Positions 13,316 through 62,759 of a DNA stretch of 64,000 bases are shown piece by piece. Made by a program: the position numbers and the translations under genes. The stretch spans positions 5,580,001 through 5,644,000 of the forward strand of contig NZ_CP146022.1 in assembly GCF_036967205.1 (NCBI RefSeq), in the 5' to 3' direction. This DNA comes from Streptomyces sp. Q6 (GTDB lineage: Bacteria; Actinomycetota; Actinomycetes; Streptomycetales; Streptomycetaceae). Position 1 is the stretch's first letter. Each line of letters opens with the position of its first letter. The notes beneath the pieces are model-generated. The model was given only the letters and a program-made list of their open reading frames with translations, searched no databases and was not told the origin of the DNA.

Positions 13316-13403
13316 CGCACGTCGGGCGCATTAGTACGACGAACACCGGCCGCCTGTGGACAACGCGACGCACCCGCCCCCACAGACCTGGCAGCATGGC
13401 GGG

Positions 13404-15623
13404 GTGACAGCAGCAACGCACTCCACCCTGTTCCCGCAGGTCCCGGATTCGGCCGACGCGGTGCTCGACGGGCTCGACCCCGAGCAGCGCGCCGTGGCGA
13501 CGGCCCTGCACGGTCCGGTGTGCGTGCTCGCGGGCGCGGGCACCGGCAAGACGCGCGCGATCACCCACCGCATCGCGTTCGGCGTCCGGGCCGGGATCCT
13601 CCAGCCGGGCACCGTGCTCGCCGTCACGTTCACCAACCGCGCCGCGGGTGAGATGCGCGGCCGGCTGCGCCAGCTCGGCGCCGGGGGAGTGCAGGCCCGC
13701 ACCTTCCACTCGGCGGCGCTGCGCCAGCTCCAGTTCTTCTGGCCCAAGGCGGTCGGCGGCGAGCTGCCGCGACTCGTCGACCGCAAGATCCAGCTCGTCG
13801 CCGACGCCGCGGCGGCCTGCCGGCTCCGCCTCGACCGAGGTGAGCTGCGCGACGTGACCGCCGAGATCGAGTGGTCCAAGGTCACCCAGACCGTCCCTGC
13901 GGACTACGCGGCGGCGGCCCACAAGGCAGGCCGCGAATCGCCCCGCCACCCGGCCGAGATCGCTCAGATCTACGCCAACTACGAGTCGCTGAAGAGGGAC
14001 CGCACGGTCATCGACTTCGAGGACGTCCTGCTCCTGACGGTCGGCATCCTCCAGGACCGCCAGGACATCGCCGAGCAGATCCGCGCCCAGTACCAGCACT
14101 TCGTGGTCGACGAGTACCAGGACGTCAGCCCCCTCCAGCAGCGTCTGCTCGACCTGTGGCTCGGCGAGCGCGACAGCCTCTGCGTCGTCGGCGACGCCAG
14201 CCAGACGATCTACTCCTTCACCGGTGCCACCCCCGACCACCTGCTCAACTTCCGCACCCGCCACCCCGGCGCCACCGTCGTCAAACTCGTCCGTGACTAC
14301 CGCTCGTCGCCCCAGGTCGTGCGCCTGGCCAACGGAATCCTGTCCCGGGCGAGCGGCCGCGCGGCCGAGCACCGCCTGGAGCTGATCTCCCAGCGCGAGG
14401 CAGGCCCCGAGCCGGTCTACATCGAGTACGCCGACGAGCCCAGCGAGGCGGAGGGCGCGGCCCGCCGCATCCGCGAGCTGATCGCCGGCGGGGTCTCCGC
14501 CGGCGAGATCGCCGTCCTGTTCCGGACGAACGGCCAGTCGGAGATCTACGAGCAGGCCCTCGCCGACGCCGGTGTGCCCTACCAGCTGCGCGGCGCCGAG
14601 CGCTTCTTCGAGCGGGCCGAGGTCCGCAAGGCCGGCCACGCCCTGCGCGCGGCGGCCCGCTTCGGGGGCAACGACGCGGACCTCGACGAGGCCGTGGACC
14701 TGCCCTCCCAGGTGAGAGCCGTCCTCTCCGGCGAGGGCTGGACGAGCGAGCCGCCCGCGGGCTCCGGAGCGGTCCGTGAGCGCTGGGAGTCCCTCGCGGC
14801 CCTCGCCCGGCTCGCGGAGGACTTCGCCCGCGCCCACCCGGACGCTACCCTCGCCGACTTCGTGGCGGAGCTCGACGAGCGGGCCGCCGCGCAGCACGCC
14901 CCCACCGTGGAAGGCGTCACACTCGCGTCGCTGCACGCGGCCAAGGGCCTGGAGTGGGACGCCGTGTTCCTGGTCGGCCTCGCCGAGGGCATGATGCCGA
15001 TCACGTACGCCAAGACCGACGAGCAGATCGAGGAGGAGCGCCGTCTCCTCTACGTGGGCGTGACCCGGGCCAGACGCCACCTCGGCCTCTCGTGGGCCCT
15101 GTCCCGCTCGCCCGGTGGTCGGCCGAACCGGCGCCCCAGCCGCTTCCTGGACGGGCTGCGCCCCGGCTCCACCGGCGTGGCCGGGCGGAGCGCCGGTGTC
15201 GGGCAGGGCGGCGTCGAGCACGGGACCCGGCAGCAGGCGCGCGAGCCACTGGGCACCGCCGCACGCCGCCGCACCGACAGGAAGGTCGCGCGCTGCCGGG
15301 TGTGCGGGCGCACGCTGGAGGCGGCCGAGATGAAGCTGATGCGCTGCGAGGACTGTCCGTCGGACATGGACGAGGGCCTGTACGAGCGGCTGATCGAGTG
15401 GCGGGCCCGCACGGCGGTCGATCTCGGCCAACCGGCGTTCTGCGTCTTCACCGACAAGACCTTGATCGCCATCGCCGAGGCCGCGCCCGAGGACGAGCGG
15501 GAGCTGTCCCACATCCCGGGCGTCGGTCGACGGAAGTTTCGGACCTTCGGATCCGACGTGCTGGCCATCTGCGCAGGTCAAACGGTGGGCGATGAGCCCG
15601 CGGTGGAGGCGCACGACGACTGA
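13404..15623 (+). CDS. uvrD2: UvrD2: superfamily I DNA helicase with tetracysteine linker and HRDC domain
   Basis: About 739 residues from GTG 13404; CAGCAT ends six bases upstream, consistent with a leaderless start, and an upstream ATG at 13356 is less likely. Helicase motifs: Walker A GAGTGKT (about 45), TFHSAAL, DEYQD (about 236), DYRSS, HAAKGLEWD and VGVTRAR. A four-Cys module CRVCGR...MRCEDCP (about 631-651) links the motor to a C-terminal HRDC domain (about 655-722, with HIPGVGRRKF). This architecture defines mycobacterial UvrD2, an essential 3'-5' helicase there. It is directly upstream of the wblC leader, as in mycobacteria. Confidence 0.94.
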   Translation: MTAATHSTLFPQVPDSADAVLDGLDPEQRAVATALHGPVCVLAGAGTGKTRAITHRIAFGVRAGILQPGTVLAVTFTNRAAGEMRGRLRQLGAGGVQARTFHSAALRQLQFFWPKAVGGELPRLVDRKIQLVADAAAACRLRLDRGELRDVTAEIEWSKVTQTVPADYAAAAHKAGRESPRHPAEIAQIYANYESLKRDRTVIDFEDVLLLTVGILQDRQDIAEQIRAQYQHFVVDEYQDVSPLQQRLLDLWLGERDSLCVVGDASQTIYSFTGATPDHLLNFRTRHPGATVVKLVRDYRSSPQVVRLANGILSRASGRAAEHRLELISQREAGPEPVYIEYADEPSEAEGAARRIRELIAGGVSAGEIAVLFRTNGQSEIYEQALADAGVPYQLRGAERFFERAEVRKAGHALRAAARFGGNDADLDEAVDLPSQVRAVLSGEGWTSEPPAGSGAVRERWESLAALARLAEDFARAHPDATLADFVAELDERAAAQHAPTVEGVTLASLHAAKGLEWDAVFLVGLAEGMMPITYAKTDEQIEEERRLLYVGVTRARRHLGLSWALSRSPGGRPNRRPSRFLDGLRPGSTGVAGRSAGVGQGGVEHGTRQQAREPLGTAARRRTDRKVARCRVCGRTLEAAEMKLMRCEDCPSDMDEGLYERLIEWRARTAVDLGQPAFCVFTDKTLIAIAEAAPEDERELSHIPGVGRRKFRTFGSDVLAICAGQTVGDEPAVEAHDD

Positions 15624-15636
15624 TTCAAACTCGTCG

Positions 15637-15676
15637 AAAAAATAGTTTGCGCATGCCCCAGCAACCCCCATAGGTT
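15637..15676 (+). promoter_or_regulatory. wblC promoter with WhiB7-type AT-rich element
   Basis: AAAAAAT (15637-15643), three bases, TTGCGC (15647-15652), an 18-base spacer, and TAGGTT (15671-15676). WhiB7-activated promoters have a short A/T tract about three bases upstream of the -35. This copy suggests that WblC activates its own gene. No other A/T run like it is visible nearby. Confidence 0.7.
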
Positions 15677-15784
15677 CTTAAGCACGAAAGCAGCGGTCTT
15701 CTCGAAGGCCCTGGTTCCGTGATGTACTTGAAAGCCGTCGGACCGGTTCACCGGTCCCCTAGACGCCGAGAGGAGGCGAATCCA

Positions 15785-16111
15785 GTGATCAGCATCAAGG
15801 CCAGCTCCATCAGCACCGTCAAAATGACCGATCGCTCGGTCGTCGCTTCCTGCCTGCTCGGCTTCTCGAACCTGGGCACCGGTCTGTCTGGCGTCAGCGC
15901 CATGCGTCCGGAGTCCGGCCTGTCTCTCGCGGGTCTTCCCATTCGCGAGGGCAATGAGCGACCGACCAAGGCACCGGAAGCAGTAGCGACGGCACAGGCT
16001 CAGGCCTATGCCTTTGCCGCGGCCGGTGCCGGATTCCGGAAGCAGACGACGCAGCACCACCACACGATGTGGGCCTTCCGTGGGCCTGAACCCTGGAGTG
16101 ATCCAGCCTGA
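15785..16111 (+). CDS. wblC leader peptide (upstream ORF of an attenuator)
   Basis: Starts at GTG 15785, eight bases after a perfect AGGAGG at 15771-15776, the best ribosome site in this stretch. It encodes 108 residues that resemble no enzyme, ending HHHTMWAFRGPEPWSDPA. Its stop codon lies inside a small hairpin and 24 bases before an intrinsic terminator, and wblC begins 189 bases later. In mycobacteria and Streptomyces, whiB7/wblC is controlled by ribosome-dependent attenuation in a long leader, and this ORF is placed to sense ribosome stalling. The length is large for a leader peptide, so only the C-terminal part may matter. An in-frame ATG at 15719 has no ribosome site. Confidence 0.72.
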   Translation: MISIKASSISTVKMTDRSVVASCLLGFSNLGTGLSGVSAMRPESGLSLAGLPIREGNERPTKAPEAVATAQAQAYAFAAAGAGFRKQTTQHHHTMWAFRGPEPWSDPA

Positions 16112-16178
16112 TCGACGATCAGGCCGGCGCCTTCAGGGCCGCGGAACCCCACCCGGGATCCGCGGCCCTTCTGTTTTT
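16107..16178 (+). terminator. Attenuator: stop-codon hairpin plus intrinsic terminator upstream of wblC
   Basis: A 7-bp stem with a 3-base loop (CCTGATC/GATCAGG, 16107-16123) covers the leader ORF stop. A 15-position stem with one mismatch (16135-16149 with 16155-16169) follows and is trailed by CTGTTTTT, a rare true U-tract for this genome. Upstream GGGCCTGAA (about 16083-16091) can pair with TTCAGGGCC (16132-16140), which would block the 5' arm and act as antiterminator. Confidence 0.82.
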
Positions 16179-16299
16179 CCCGGAAGAGCCAGCGATCTTC
16201 CGAGGAGCCGGCACGAAGGGGCCTCGGGACAAGAAAAGAACCCGGTACCACCGCCACCCGGCCCACCGGCCGGAATGACCAGACGAGGAAGAAAACACC

Positions 16300-16668
16300 G
16301 TGCAACTCGAAGCGCACGCCCCGTCCGTACCGCCTTCAGACCCTCTGCCCCCGCCCGTGTCCACGGAGGACTCCACCTTGAACCCGCTGACTGCGCTCAC
16401 CGCGCTCGACGACGCCATCGAGAACCTCGGCGTGCCCGTCCCCTGCCGTGCCTACGACCCCGAGGTCTTCTTCGCGGAGTCGCCGGCGGATGTCGAGTAC
16501 GCCAAGTCCCTCTGCCGTACCTGTCCGCTGGTCGAGGCCTGCCTCGCCGGTGCCAAGGAGCGGCGTGAGCCGTGGGGCGTCTGGGGTGGCGAGCTGTTCG
16601 TCCAGGGAGTTGTCGTTGCCCGCAAGCGGCCGCGTGGTCGCCCGCGCAAGAACCCGGTTGCGGCATGA
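16300..16668 (+). CDS. wblC: WblC (WhiB7-type) iron-sulfur transcription factor
   Basis: 122 residues from GTG 16300 with GAGGAA upstream. Four cluster-binding Cys: C49, C72, C75 and C81. The WhiB turn motif GVWGG is at 93-97 and an AT-hook RGRPRK at 112-117, the combination that marks WhiB7/WblC rather than other Wbl proteins. With the principal sigma factor it activates intrinsic antibiotic-resistance genes after ribosome-targeting drugs. Context agrees: uvrD2 upstream, a 600-base leader with uORF and attenuator, and a promoter with the WhiB7-type A/T element. The start of the next small ORF overlaps its stop. Confidence 0.95.
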   Translation: MQLEAHAPSVPPSDPLPPPVSTEDSTLNPLTALTALDDAIENLGVPVPCRAYDPEVFFAESPADVEYAKSLCRTCPLVEACLAGAKERREPWGVWGGELFVQGVVVARKRPRGRPRKNPVAA

Positions 16669-16817
16669 ACACCCCAGGAACGATCGACCGCCCTCTGACG
16701 CACGACCCCAAGAAGCAGGCCCCGATGAAGCCGTCCACGAGCGAGCCCGCCGGCTCCGCGATCCCAGACTTCACCCCCACCGGCGCGAACGAATCGCGTC
16801 AGAACAGGACCCGTCAG

Positions 16818-16988
16818 ATGCAACTCATCCCAGAAGCGCTGGCTCGTGCGCATATGCACGAACAGCTGCGTGAGGCCGAGAGCGAACGCAGGGCCGTGCG
16901 CCTCGTCGTCGCTCGCCGGATGCAGCGGCGCGCCGAGCGCGCGTCCCTGCGCGCCCGACGCGCGCTGGCCATGGCCGTCATGCAGTAA
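16818..16988 (+). CDS. Small basic protein downstream of wblC, function unknown
   Basis: 56 residues from ATG 16818, which has AGGA eight bases upstream. It begins MQLIPEALARAHMHEQLREA and is a single Arg/Ala-rich helical segment with no membrane helix. A longer reading from ATG 16665 (107 residues) would overlap the wblC stop (ATGA type) and imply coupling; its extra N-terminal part is Pro/Thr-rich and looks disordered. I favour the short form but cannot decide. Likely co-transcribed with wblC, since no terminator intervenes. I do not recognise the family. Confidence 0.6.
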   Translation: MQLIPEALARAHMHEQLREAESERRAVRLVVARRMQRRAERASLRARRALAMAVMQ

Positions 16989-17063
16989 CAGAGCCACCGA
17001 GAACAGATTCACCGAACGACACAGCACAGCGTCGCTGCCGACCGCCGCAGTGAGCGGCTGTCC

Positions 17064-17100
17064 CCGCGGGGGCCGGTCCTTCCCGGACCGGCCCCCGCGG
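17064..17100 (+). terminator. Strong hairpin terminator after the wblC unit
   Basis: Perfect 16-bp stem (17064-17079 with 17085-17100) and a 5-base loop, no U-tract, which is common in Streptomyces. It separates the wblC transcript from the zinc-ribbon gene. Confidence 0.85.
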
Positions 17101-17146
17101 TGCGTGGTGAGCGGCGATCACCGGCACGCGGAGTTATCGTCGCCGG

Positions 17147-17350
17147 GTGACGTCTCTTCCTGGCGGGGACTGTGACCAGCAGCCCGAACCCTCGGCCATC
17201 GTCTGCGCCCGCTGCGGTGCGAGCGCCCCAGGACTGCCGCTGACCTGGACGTGCTCCAGAGAGGCTGGTGTCAGCCGCTACTTCTGCGACACCTGCGCCC
17301 GGGAGAACATCAGGGCCATCGAGGGACGGCTCGACTCCGACTGGTGGTGA
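17147..17350 (+). CDS. Small zinc-ribbon protein, function unknown
   Basis: 67 residues. Two CxxC knuckles, C20/C23 (CARCG) and C47/C50 (CDTC), frame a short strand region with a further Cys at 36, the layout of a rubredoxin-like zinc ribbon. The end is ENIRAIEGRLDSDWW. TTATCG lies seven bases before GTG 17147, fitting a leaderless mRNA. Convergent with the AarF-like gene, whose stop is the next base. Conserved Streptomyces hypothetical by my recollection; the partner is unknown. Confidence 0.72.
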   Translation: MTSLPGGDCDQQPEPSAIVCARCGASAPGLPLTWTCSREAGVSRYFCDTCARENIRAIEGRLDSDWW

Positions 17351-18715
17351 TCAGCCCTCGGCGGCCCGCTCGGCCTCCTCCTCCTCGTCGAACTCCGGCA
17401 CGAACCCCGGTACCCACGCCTCGAGTTCGTCCCTGAGCCTGACCGTGGCTCCGAGCTGGCAGAGCACCCCGATCGTGCTGAGCGTCACCCGGTGGATCAG
17501 CAGGTAGGCGGGCGGCAGGTTGAGCTGCTTCCCGAGCTGGTGCGCGGGCGAGCGGGGGTCGGCGATCCGTGCCGCCTGGTTGCGCATCCAGGAGCGGGTG
17601 AACGTGAAGGACTCGACCTCGGCCGGCTCGATGATCGGCAGCAGATAGTCGAGCACCGCGCCCGGTTCGAGCTCGATCGACTCCTTGACGAAGCCCTCCT
17701 CGCGCAGCAGCTCGTAGACGCCGACCGCGTCACCGGCAAGCGTCATGCGCAGCGAGGCGCCGATCGGTGTGGGCAGTCCGCCCGGGAGGCGGTCCACCGT
17801 CCCGAAGTCCAGGACGCCGAGCCGCCAGCCGCCCTCCTCGTCCGGCAGCAGCCGGAAGTTGCCCGGATGCGGATCGGCGTGCAGCAGGCCGGTGCGCGCC
17901 GGACCCGAGAACAGGAAGCGCGCCAGCAACTGGCCCGCGCGATCGCGCTGTTCCTCCGTGCCGTCGTTGATGATCTCCGCGAGGGGCGTCCCGTCGATCC
18001 ACTCGGTGACCAGGACCTGGTCGCACTGGTGCACCACCTGCGGCACCACGACGTCCGGATCGTCCGCGAACTCCTCGGCGTGGGCACGCTGGGCCTGGGC
18101 CTCCAGCGCGTAGTCCAACTCCTCCGACACCCGGTCGCGCAGCTCGGCGATGAGCGGCTTGATGTCCATCCCCGGAATGAGCGGGCCCAACAGGCGTGCG
18201 AAACGGCTCAGTTGAGTGAGGTCCGAGAGCAGGGCCTCGCCCGCGCCCGGGTATTGCACCTTCACCGCGACTTCGCGCCCGTCGTGCCACACGGCCCGGT
18301 GCACCTGCCCGATGGACGCGGCCGCCGACGGCTTGTCCTCGAACTCCTCGAACAGCTCCCGCCATTGCTCGCCGAGCCGCTCCGCCAGGACCGCGTGCAC
18401 GGTGCGGGTGGGCATCGGAGGCGCCGCCTCCTGAAGCTTGGTCAGAGCGGCCCGGTAGGGACCCGCGACCTCCTCCGGCAGCGCCGACTCGAAGACGGAC
18501 AGGGCCTGCCCGAACTTCATCGCTCCGCCCTTGAGTTCACCCAGGACCTTGAACAGCTGCTCCGCCGTGCGCTGCTGGAGCTCGCGGCCGACGATCTCGG
18601 CGGACTTGCCGCCGATGCGCTTGCCGATGCCCCAGGTGGCACGGCCGGCGAAGCCGATTGGCAGCGCGGCCAACTTGGCGGTCCGGGTAACCGCCTTCCG
18701 GGGAAGATCAGACAT
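17351..18715 (-). CDS. AarF/ABC1/UbiB-family atypical kinase
   Basis: 454 residues from ATG 18715 with GGAGGGG seven bases upstream. Family motifs are all present: KFGQALS (the KxGQ inhibitory motif, about 66), the Ala-rich nucleotide loop AAASIGQVH, VAVKVQYPG (about 150), HADPHPGNF (about 277) and VLDFGTV. UbiB/ADCK proteins are ATPases that support isoprenoid-quinone or lipid metabolism at membranes; this clade has no assigned substrate. It lies 67 bp after the ThiF-like gene on the same strand, so an operon is likely. The same family member sits next to whiB7 in mycobacteria as I recall. Confidence 0.88.
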   Translation of the reverse strand: MSDLPRKAVTRTAKLAALPIGFAGRATWGIGKRIGGKSAEIVGRELQQRTAEQLFKVLGELKGGAMKFGQALSVFESALPEEVAGPYRAALTKLQEAAPPMPTRTVHAVLAERLGEQWRELFEEFEDKPSAAASIGQVHRAVWHDGREVAVKVQYPGAGEALLSDLTQLSRFARLLGPLIPGMDIKPLIAELRDRVSEELDYALEAQAQRAHAEEFADDPDVVVPQVVHQCDQVLVTEWIDGTPLAEIINDGTEEQRDRAGQLLARFLFSGPARTGLLHADPHPGNFRLLPDEEGGWRLGVLDFGTVDRLPGGLPTPIGASLRMTLAGDAVGVYELLREEGFVKESIELEPGAVLDYLLPIIEPAEVESFTFTRSWMRNQAARIADPRSPAHQLGKQLNLPPAYLLIHRVTLSTIGVLCQLGATVRLRDELEAWVPGFVPEFDEEEEAERAAEG

Positions 18716-33239: not shown

Positions 33240-33313
33240 CGCGGGGTGGAGCAGCTCGGTAGCTCGCTGGGCTCATAACCCAGAGGTCGCAGGTTCAAAT
33301 CCTGTCCCCGCTA
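33240..33313 (+). tRNA. Initiator tRNA-fMet (CAT), copy 1
   Basis: 74 bases without encoded CCA. Acceptor CGCGGGG pairs with CCCCGCT except for the first pair, a C1-U72 mismatch that marks an initiator. The anticodon stem carries the three G:C pairs GGG/CCC around CTCATAA, anticodon at 33274-33276. Identical to copy 2 at 35515. Confidence 0.95.
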
Positions 33314-35514: not shown

Positions 35515-35588
35515 CGCGGGGTGGAGCAGCTCGGTAGCTCGCTGGGCTCATAACCCAGAGGTCGCAGGTTCAAATCCTGTCCCCGCTA
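35515..35588 (+). tRNA. Initiator tRNA-fMet (CAT), copy 2
   Basis: Identical over all 74 bases to the copy at 33240, including the C1-U72 mismatch and the GGG/CCC anticodon stem; anticodon at 35549-35551. No encoded CCA. Confidence 0.95.
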
Positions 35589-62443: not shown

Positions 62444-62759
62444 GTGGGGGCTCTCCCTCGCTCGGCTCGGGGCCTTACGGGGGAGGAGTGGCTCGGGCGC
62501 GCACGCACGGCGGCACCGTCGTCACCGGCCCGATCCGCGAGGCCCGACGTCGTCGACGCCCCAGCCGGACGGCTCGGGCGTACCGTCGACAGGTCCTCGG
62601 ACTCACGCAGGCGCTTTGTGCGCCTCCGTTCACCGTTGCGGGACAGTTCCGGAATTGCACCGGATTCCCCTGTGGCGACAGCGAGAGCGAGCATACATGT
62701 TGTGCCGGGTCGCTGCGGCAGGCCCACATCTTGTGTCGGCCCGCCGCATGCGGCGGTGC
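62444..62759 (-). other. Long leader region of nrdA
   Basis: 316 bases without a gene. It contains the cobalamin riboswitch (62570-62700) and a G+C-rich stretch between it and nrdA with several possible hairpins that could be the expression platform. A TATGCT at 62690-62695 (minus strand) may be the -10 box. The nucleoside hydrolase stop lies at its upstream edge. Confidence 0.8.
62570..62700 (-). ncRNA. Cobalamin (B12) riboswitch of the nrd operon
   Basis: On the minus strand the conserved landmarks occur in order: GGGAATCCGGTGCAATTCC, then ACTGTCCCGCAACGG, then GTGAGTCCGAGGACCTG (the B12 box, 62604-62590). A class Ia nrd operon under B12 riboswitch control is known in S. coelicolor. Boundaries are approximate. 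Confidence 0.93.

Follow-up and report, generated by a model that had tools for sequence, protein, structure and literature searches.

In a 64,000-nucleotide stretch of the Streptomyces sp. Q6 genome (hereafter the window), we found that the leader of wblC is very probably a ribosome-dependent attenuator of the whiB7/wblC type, in which a long upstream open reading frame (uORF) would act as a trap for stalled ribosomes and the C-terminal codons of the uORF would be conserved as an RNA helix. The anatomy of the leader, conservation of the reading frame, selection at the RNA level, compensatory base changes and recurrence across the class were all observed. In Actinomycetes, intrinsic resistance to drugs that target the ribosome is driven by WhiB7/WblC. 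The Q6 leader is a member of the whiB7/wblC system that has already been reported. All of the elements described in the initial annotation were located where it had placed them. Its picture of the uORF changed in two respects: the uORF is not oddly long, and its conserved end is best read as RNA.

The window lies within a genome of 8.95 Mb, and the best 80 relatives of its wblC all came from Streptomyces. The gene (16300..16668, + strand) starts with GTG and encodes 122 aa matching PF02467 (Whib, E 2.7e-14), and its locus was far the top match among the 11 WhiB matches in the genome. The translation of this WhiB7/WblC-type protein downstream of the leader contains GVWGG and a C-terminal RGRPRK stretch, which we take to be marks of WhiB7. 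Upstream lies a UvrD-type helicase gene (13356-15623), and between the two genes come a block resembling a promoter, a strong ribosome site, the uORF of 108 codons and a terminator. The promoter (15638..15676, +), a candidate for WblC-dependent autoregulation whose hexamers were assigned by eye, would comprise an AT-rich box AAAAAT (15638-15643), a -35 hexamer TTGCGC (15647-15652) and, after an 18-nt spacer, a -10 hexamer TAGGTT (15671-15676). Its columns are mostly highly conserved in the 81 Streptomyces loci, and it was absent from the output of a sigma-70 consensus scan. Excerpts of PMC7157823 place the WblC motif GAAAWY 3 nt upstream of the -35 element and name a two-level control of wblC in S. 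coelicolor; the AAAAAT box fits this motif at 5/6 positions with the right spacing and is conserved in the 81 loci. If transcription starts ∼7 nt past the -10 hexamer assigned by eye, the transcribed leader would be ∼617 nt long, and the coordinates 15637..16299 take in the promoter besides the transcribed leader. A search of 14500-17600 against the Rfam covariance models (E <= 1) gave no hit to the leader.

Other features of the window are recorded here in their own right. A 107-aa ORF (16665-16988, +) overlaps the wblC stop codon (ATGA) and has relatives in 80/80 Streptomyces wblC loci; its core EMQLIPEALARAHM was found by tblastn in 26/100 far loci, and searches of Pfam and NCBIfam returned no match; it may be a small protein linked to whiB7. 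A cobalamin riboswitch was detected at 62571-62700 on the - strand (Rfam RF00174, 39.1 bits), and two tRNA genes of equal Rfam score (33240-33313 and 35515-35588, +) lie ∼2.3 kb apart, perhaps reflecting a duplication or an element in between.

The uORF (15785..16111, +), identified by its open frame and its conservation, runs for 108 codons from a GTG start at 15785 to a TGA stop at 16109-16111 and ends in HHHTMWAFRGPEPWSDPA. It has a strong ribosome site of its own, as had been proposed: the Shine-Dalgarno sequence GAGAGGAGG (15768..15776, +) stands just 5' of the start in 81/81 Streptomyces loci, and the uORF with the same site was found in all 80 of the other Streptomyces wblC loci. The uORF measures 97-119 codons in these 81 loci (start codons GTG 77, ATG 4) and 90-123 codons in a set of 148 rows (GTG 138, ATG 10), from which L081-L089 (WhiB hits in the own genome or copies of the window itself) had been dropped, as had L127 and L129 (no motif). 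The 148 rows reduce to 141 distinct ones, and 60 were picked at below 90% identity; alignment A1 holds 42 of the 60, thinned by hand, and alignment A2 holds 57, with L053, L128 and L130 omitted for long insertions. A search with the uORF protein found a match in 210 of the family's 297 genomes. Of those listed, with 67 unmatched genomes left off, the only one of the own genus lacking a match was G097; it was later matched by an RNA model, and a 119-codon uORF was read there (locus L208).

Loss of the reading frame had been named beforehand as one outcome that would speak against the initial annotation, and the frame proved to be conserved. The spacings between conserved blocks vary by indels and leave the frame intact in 140/141, 127/128, 123/126 and 132/132 rows, the denominators being those of the 148 rows where both anchors could be located, whereas two non-coding control spacings showed no frame (remainders 97/38/13 in 148 rows and 43/36/35 in 114).

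Near the uORF start, a small hairpin GACCGA-TCGC-TCGGTC (15826..15841, +) lies in a conserved block (z -2.6, 2/200 shuffles as good) and is not part of the consensus structure of the alignment windows. Its inverted repeat, GACCGATCGCTCGGTC, is conserved, and the 3' half also shows complementarity to a conserved block around 15958. Two candidate switches internal to the uORF, picked out by eye, 15836-15842 with the block near 15958-15964 and 15875-15882 with 16023-16030, were rejected, complementarity being all that they offered.

Past the uORF, the U-tailed terminator of the initial annotation was recovered at the distance given there, its G-C stem beginning 24 nt after the uORF stop codon. 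This intrinsic terminator between the uORF and wblC, predicted by sequence and folding, spans 16135..16178 (+) with its U-rich tail; the hairpin itself (16135-16169, tail TCTGTTTTT) has an MFE of -29.7, a z of -5.5 and 0/200 shuffles as good, and its stem is nearly invariant. A simple terminator scan left it out, presumably on account of an internal stem mismatch and of a loop above the limit of 8 in the perfect outer stem. The upstream segment said to pair with the terminator 5' arm was traced to 16076-16083, within a predicted 84-nt antiterminator hairpin (16069..16152, +; MFE -48.4 kcal/mol, z -4.9, 0/200 shuffles as good) that shares sequence with both the uORF and the terminator; a second segment, 16091-16098, pairs with the 5' flank of the terminator together with its first bases. 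The antiterminator is built from the helices GUGGG/CCCAC, UUCCGUGG/CCGCGGAA and CCCUGGAG with segment 16131-16138. Nearly all of its pairs are kept in the 141 distinct rows, mostly without variation, and the columns of terminator and antiterminator alike are nearly invariant in the 81 Streptomyces loci.

Two smaller hairpins occupy the end of the uORF. H1 (UGGA-GUGA-UCCA, 16094..16105, +) lies in the last uORF codons, has an invariant stem in the 141 rows and a GNRA-type loop (GTGA 116, GCGA 16, GAGA 15 and GTCA 1 of 148 rows), and is mutually exclusive with the antiterminator. H2 (16106..16124, +) is the hairpin already proposed on the stop codon; it spans TGA 16109-16111 and doubles as the antiterminator apex. 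Its pair 16107-16123 is C-G in 121, U-A in 16 and U-G in 4 of the 141 rows (single-pair null p 2e-4), and the folding of H1 and H2 together gave a z of -2.6 with 4/200 shuffles as good. An unbiased all-pairs covariation scan with a tree-based null returned 0 pairs at E < 0.05, which we read as low power given near-invariant columns and a strong phylogenetic signal, and we therefore relied on tests of prespecified structures and on comparisons between loci.

This conserved architecture, together with the mechanism published for the gene family, supports the proposed ribosome-dependent attenuation of a whiB7-type gene. We infer its timing, stall position, drug response and the reason for the uORF length as follows. 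Transcription would start near 15683 and ribosomes would initiate on the uORF. If translation kept pace to the end, a ribosome would cover the last codons, which form the antiterminator 5' strand, and the terminator would then fold and stop transcription near 16178. If instead a ribosome stalled or lagged before approximately codon 94 of 108, through an antibiotic or because charged tRNA is lacking, the last codons would be left free to pair with the terminator 5' flank and arm once these were made, and polymerase would continue into wblC. The length of the uORF would in this way provide a wide trap for stalled ribosomes.

Folding of the window RNA to 16152 with a modelled ribosome was consistent with this scheme. 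The antiterminator probability was 0.98-1.00 for a P site on codon 1, 20 or 40 and 0.94-1.00 at the sampled codons 84-93, and it fell to 0.00 at the sampled codons from 94 on. A conserved C/A-rich stretch encoding Gln-Thr-Thr-Gln-His-His (16043-16066, +), directly 5' of the antiterminator, lies at the last positions from which a stalled ribosome should, in this model, permit antitermination. In the absence of any ribosome the probability was 0.94, so that loss of the start codon should, on the model, raise expression. With the RNA extended to 16169, the terminator had an equilibrium probability of 0.96-1.0 at every sampled ribosome position, so the antiterminator would have to be kinetically trapped and act before the terminator is complete. 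Across the 60 rows, the antiterminator exceeded 0.5 in all 60 with the ribosome front just before it and in 53 with the front at 15900. The window has a dip of its own, with antiterminator probabilities of 0.64, 0.17 and 0.05 for a ribosome at codons 55, 62 and 70; it is absent from most relatives among the 60 rows, and as a modelled effect it weakens, for the Q6 strain, the claim that a stall at any codon would suffice. Permissive stall codons are predicted up to ∼93 of 108, and the peptide sequence should matter little.

To place the Q6 locus in the class, a covariance model of 16058-16178 (R1) was searched in 296 class genomes; it matched 160, including 31 in the own genus, and left 136 without a match. 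We read 100 of the matched loci, chiefly best scores first, 99 of them outside the genus and nearly all in other families. A WhiB hit was present in 97, then a terminator in 94 and a uORF with a Shine-Dalgarno sequence in 90; as R1 contains the terminator, the independent findings at matched loci are the uORF and the WhiB gene only. The uORFs of the 90 loci have 43-198 codons (median 76.5), lengths that are biased upward by taking the longest start among equally good Shine-Dalgarno sequences, and stop 15-40 nt (median 22) before the terminator. An earlier count with another start rule had given 37/40 loci with 52-160 codons and a median of 83. A uORF so placed occurred in 90/94 loci vs 8.2% of 1602 positions drawn at random from these loci, and in a strict form (GGAGG, a stop 15-30 nt before the terminator and 43-200 codons, limits set after inspection of the data) in 83/94 loci vs 0.8% of 1602 random positions. 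The initial annotation had called the uORF very long for its job; with 43-198 codons usual in these 90 class-wide, model-matched loci that view found no support, and the counts suggest that a long uORF is normal for the family and the rule among model-matched loci.

The uORF is constrained more at silent positions than its protein would lead one to expect from wblC. Over 3000 random row pairs among the 148 rows, amino-acid identity was 0.66 for the uORF vs 0.87 for wblC, and identity at four-fold sites was 0.82 vs 0.75. The wblC starts had been picked mechanically (122 codons in 77/148 rows), and the comparison was repeated on window columns only, giving protein and four-fold identities of 0.66 and 0.82 for the uORF, 0.88 and 0.75 for wblC and 0.94 and 0.70 for wblC codons 37-122. 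Four-fold sites of the uORF form frozen blocks (0.83-0.99) between linkers that vary freely (0.54-0.67). In wblC the first 12 codons are frozen as well (0.94), and such constraint is not unique to the uORF. Conserved uORF codons mostly use one synonym, which is often a rare one (CGA 81/81, GGT 81/81, TAT 77/78).

Part of this constraint falls on an internal hairpin, M (15970..16030, +), with an outer helix of 15970-15977 and 16023-16030 and a consensus fold z of -7.2; in the window its MFE z was -4.1, with 1/200 shuffles as good. Over the 57 rows of A2, 94.3% of the outer-helix cells are paired, and two-sided changes occur in 4/8 pairs (9 two-sided cells), so that compensatory changes lie inside the uORF. 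None of 500 shuffles reached hairpin M in cells paired, two-sided cells or covariation score, and 7 and 10 of 500 reached it on the other two measures. A control slid by -3 matched or surpassed hairpin M on three counts, namely two-sided pairs (4), cells changed on both sides (22) and types of pair (10), with only 50% of cells paired and a covariation score of 0.093 vs 0.155 for hairpin M, and the remaining five slid controls fell below it on every measure. The hairpin was predicted at > 0.5 in 48/60 rows. Outside the genus its model (R2) matched none of 99 loci, and its one match among the 100 far loci was L208, which belongs to the same genus. Consensus folds of four other groups, each of few loci, gave best window z values of -3.5 (10 loci), -5.0 (5), -0.9 (6) and -2.3 (14).

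In the window, a ribosome at codons 62 and 70 masks the 5' arm of hairpin M and frees a segment that pairs near 16126-16131, where the antiterminator drops to the 0.17 and 0.05 given above. With the ribosome front placed at 15978 or 16008, the antiterminator stayed > 0.5 in 53/60 and 50/60 rows of relatives, and the pairing of the freed segment is broken in 6/141 rows at 16027/16129. A role of hairpin M as a conserved guard of the antiterminator was rejected, the effect being missing in most relatives. We regard the hairpin as a new lead, and guesses as to its function include a polymerase pause and a ribosome brake.

The frozen synonymous sites could also reflect pacing of the ribosome by chosen slow codons instead of RNA folding, an explanation that we hold to be possible, if on balance doubtful. 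With the ORFs of the window as codon usage reference, rare codons (under 8% of synonyms) make up 21% of the uORF vs a median of 5.9% in 27 gene-like window ORFs, a level reached by 24 of the 1125 windows of 108 codons taken from genes, and the median of the 148 relatives is 19% with the same codon table. Against this, wblC itself has 13.9% rare codons, several of the conserved rare codons belong to hairpin M, where they covary with the bases opposite, and the last codons are accounted for by the antiterminator. The enrichment fits pacing and is partly explained by hairpin M, and pacing by slow codons is compatible with attenuation by stalled ribosomes rather than exclusive of it. Somewhat more speculatively still, the uORF body may be under selection chiefly as an RNA and a timed track, with the family-specific hairpin M and the conserved rare codons pacing ribosome against polymerase, for example by a polymerase pause that would let the first ribosome catch up. 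If so, the long uORF would be a general integrator of stalls and not a codon- or drug-specific sensor.

The initial annotation had allowed part of the uORF another role, for example as a stalling peptide. Such a role may exist in the form of an RNA hairpin or a translation-pacing element; the peptide was disfavored. It would require that the C-terminal residues HHHTMWAFRGPEPWSDPA stall the ribosome drug-dependently inside the uORF and so drive the switch, which appears quite unlikely. The comparison across streptomycetes that had been suggested did find the C-terminus to be the best conserved part of the uORF protein within Streptomyces, as an arrest peptide would be, along with compensatory changes in the stems. 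The C-terminal synonymous sites, however, are about as frozen as the residues, and the pattern looked for in an arrest peptide, residues kept while synonymous codons vary, was not seen in the uORF, where synonymous positions are mostly fixed. Residues give way where pairing does not: the H1 loop is GNGA in 147/148 rows while it encodes Ser in 133 and Arg in 15, and within the family the change from C-G to U-A at pair 16107-16123 accompanies an Ala/Val exchange, matched across the hairpin. Outside the family, the helix CCUGGAG/CUCCAGG (Trp) is swapped for CCUCGAG/CUCGAGG (Arg) and GGCCUUUGAG/CUCAAAGGC (Phe), among others, with pairing compensated. Duplexes between the uORF end and the terminator flank were more stable within a locus than across loci (-15.1 vs -13.1 kcal/mol; z -6.5, 0/5000 permutations) in a test in which 90 loci were reduced to 60 and relatedness between loci was partly controlled. 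The own duplex beat its cross mean in 47/60 of these non-redundant loci and was in the best tenth of its row in only 17/60; for the terminator arm alone, z was -3.5 (1/5000 permutations), with the own partner better in 41/60 loci. In the model, moreover, stalling within the last 15 codons would favor termination and not induction. With residues tracking RNA pairing and four-fold sites more conserved than those of wblC, the sequences suggest that the uORF end is conserved as folding RNA and not as a special peptide, its residues being kept because their codons form an RNA helix.

That the uORF encodes a functional small protein under selection, with attenuation secondary, is a shade less probable again. 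The frame survives indels and there are conserved blocks in the N-terminal half, yet the protein identity of 0.66 vs 0.87-0.88 for wblC and the four-fold identity of 0.82 vs 0.75 are the reverse of a protein-coding pattern, and the uORF protein had no Pfam or NCBIfam match. The uORF bodies bear no recognisable similarity between families, which argues against a peptide function. A chance ORF in GC-rich DNA, with the terminator being simply that of the helicase gene upstream, can be practically dismissed, for although long open frames are frequent at such GC content, the Shine-Dalgarno sequence is present at all 81 loci, the frame is kept, a promoter-like conserved block separates the helicase gene from the uORF, and the arrangement recurs class-wide far above the random-position control.

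An attenuator with a uORF upstream of whiB7/wblC has reportedly been described by Lee, Lee and Roe (2022) and by Burian and Thompson (2018), as relayed in passages of papers citing them. Excerpts of four papers that cite Lee et al. 2022 describe uORF-mediated attenuation of whiB7/wblC with a terminator and an antiterminator (PMC11550727, PMC10727445, PMC9618640, PMC13393426), and those of PMC4128351 describe a mycobacterial uORF with a stem-loop. Antibiotic-induced stalling within the whiB7 uORF is stated to be untested in PMC12121999. Our literature search of titles and abstract openings, with Lee et al. 2022 outside it, found neither an internal uORF hairpin nor a class-wide survey of uORF length. 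As far as these excerpts go, the Q6 leader shares with the reported system the same gene, a long leader, a uORF, an intrinsic terminator and an antiterminator made from uORF and terminator sequence, and no tested feature sets the Q6 locus apart.

Other attenuators resemble it in part. In the trp attenuator, stalling decides between terminator and antiterminator. A stall-dependent choice of the same kind is made in the Corynebacterium ilvBNC attenuator, according to parts of PMC11109978. The leader peptides of amino-acid attenuators are rich in the sensed amino acid, unlike the wblC uORF, in which we saw no dominant codon run, only Ala in modest excess (median 0.167 vs 0.130 for the genes of the window), and the reported whiB7/wblC signal is broad. 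Attenuators of ARE-ABCF genes (are5sc, tiaA, lmrC, vmlR) likewise rely on the ribosome to switch between terminator and antiterminator in a resistance-gene leader, as described in sections of PMC12421871; are5sc and tiaA differ in having very short uORFs (MLV and MVGDDDISG vs ∼100 codons at wblC) and in start-codon stalling by one drug group (PMC12421871). The toiL uORF of E. coli topAI belongs to another gene and another organism than the wblC uORF, and it is similar in that a single uORF senses several antibiotic classes, as reported in excerpts of PMC12121999.
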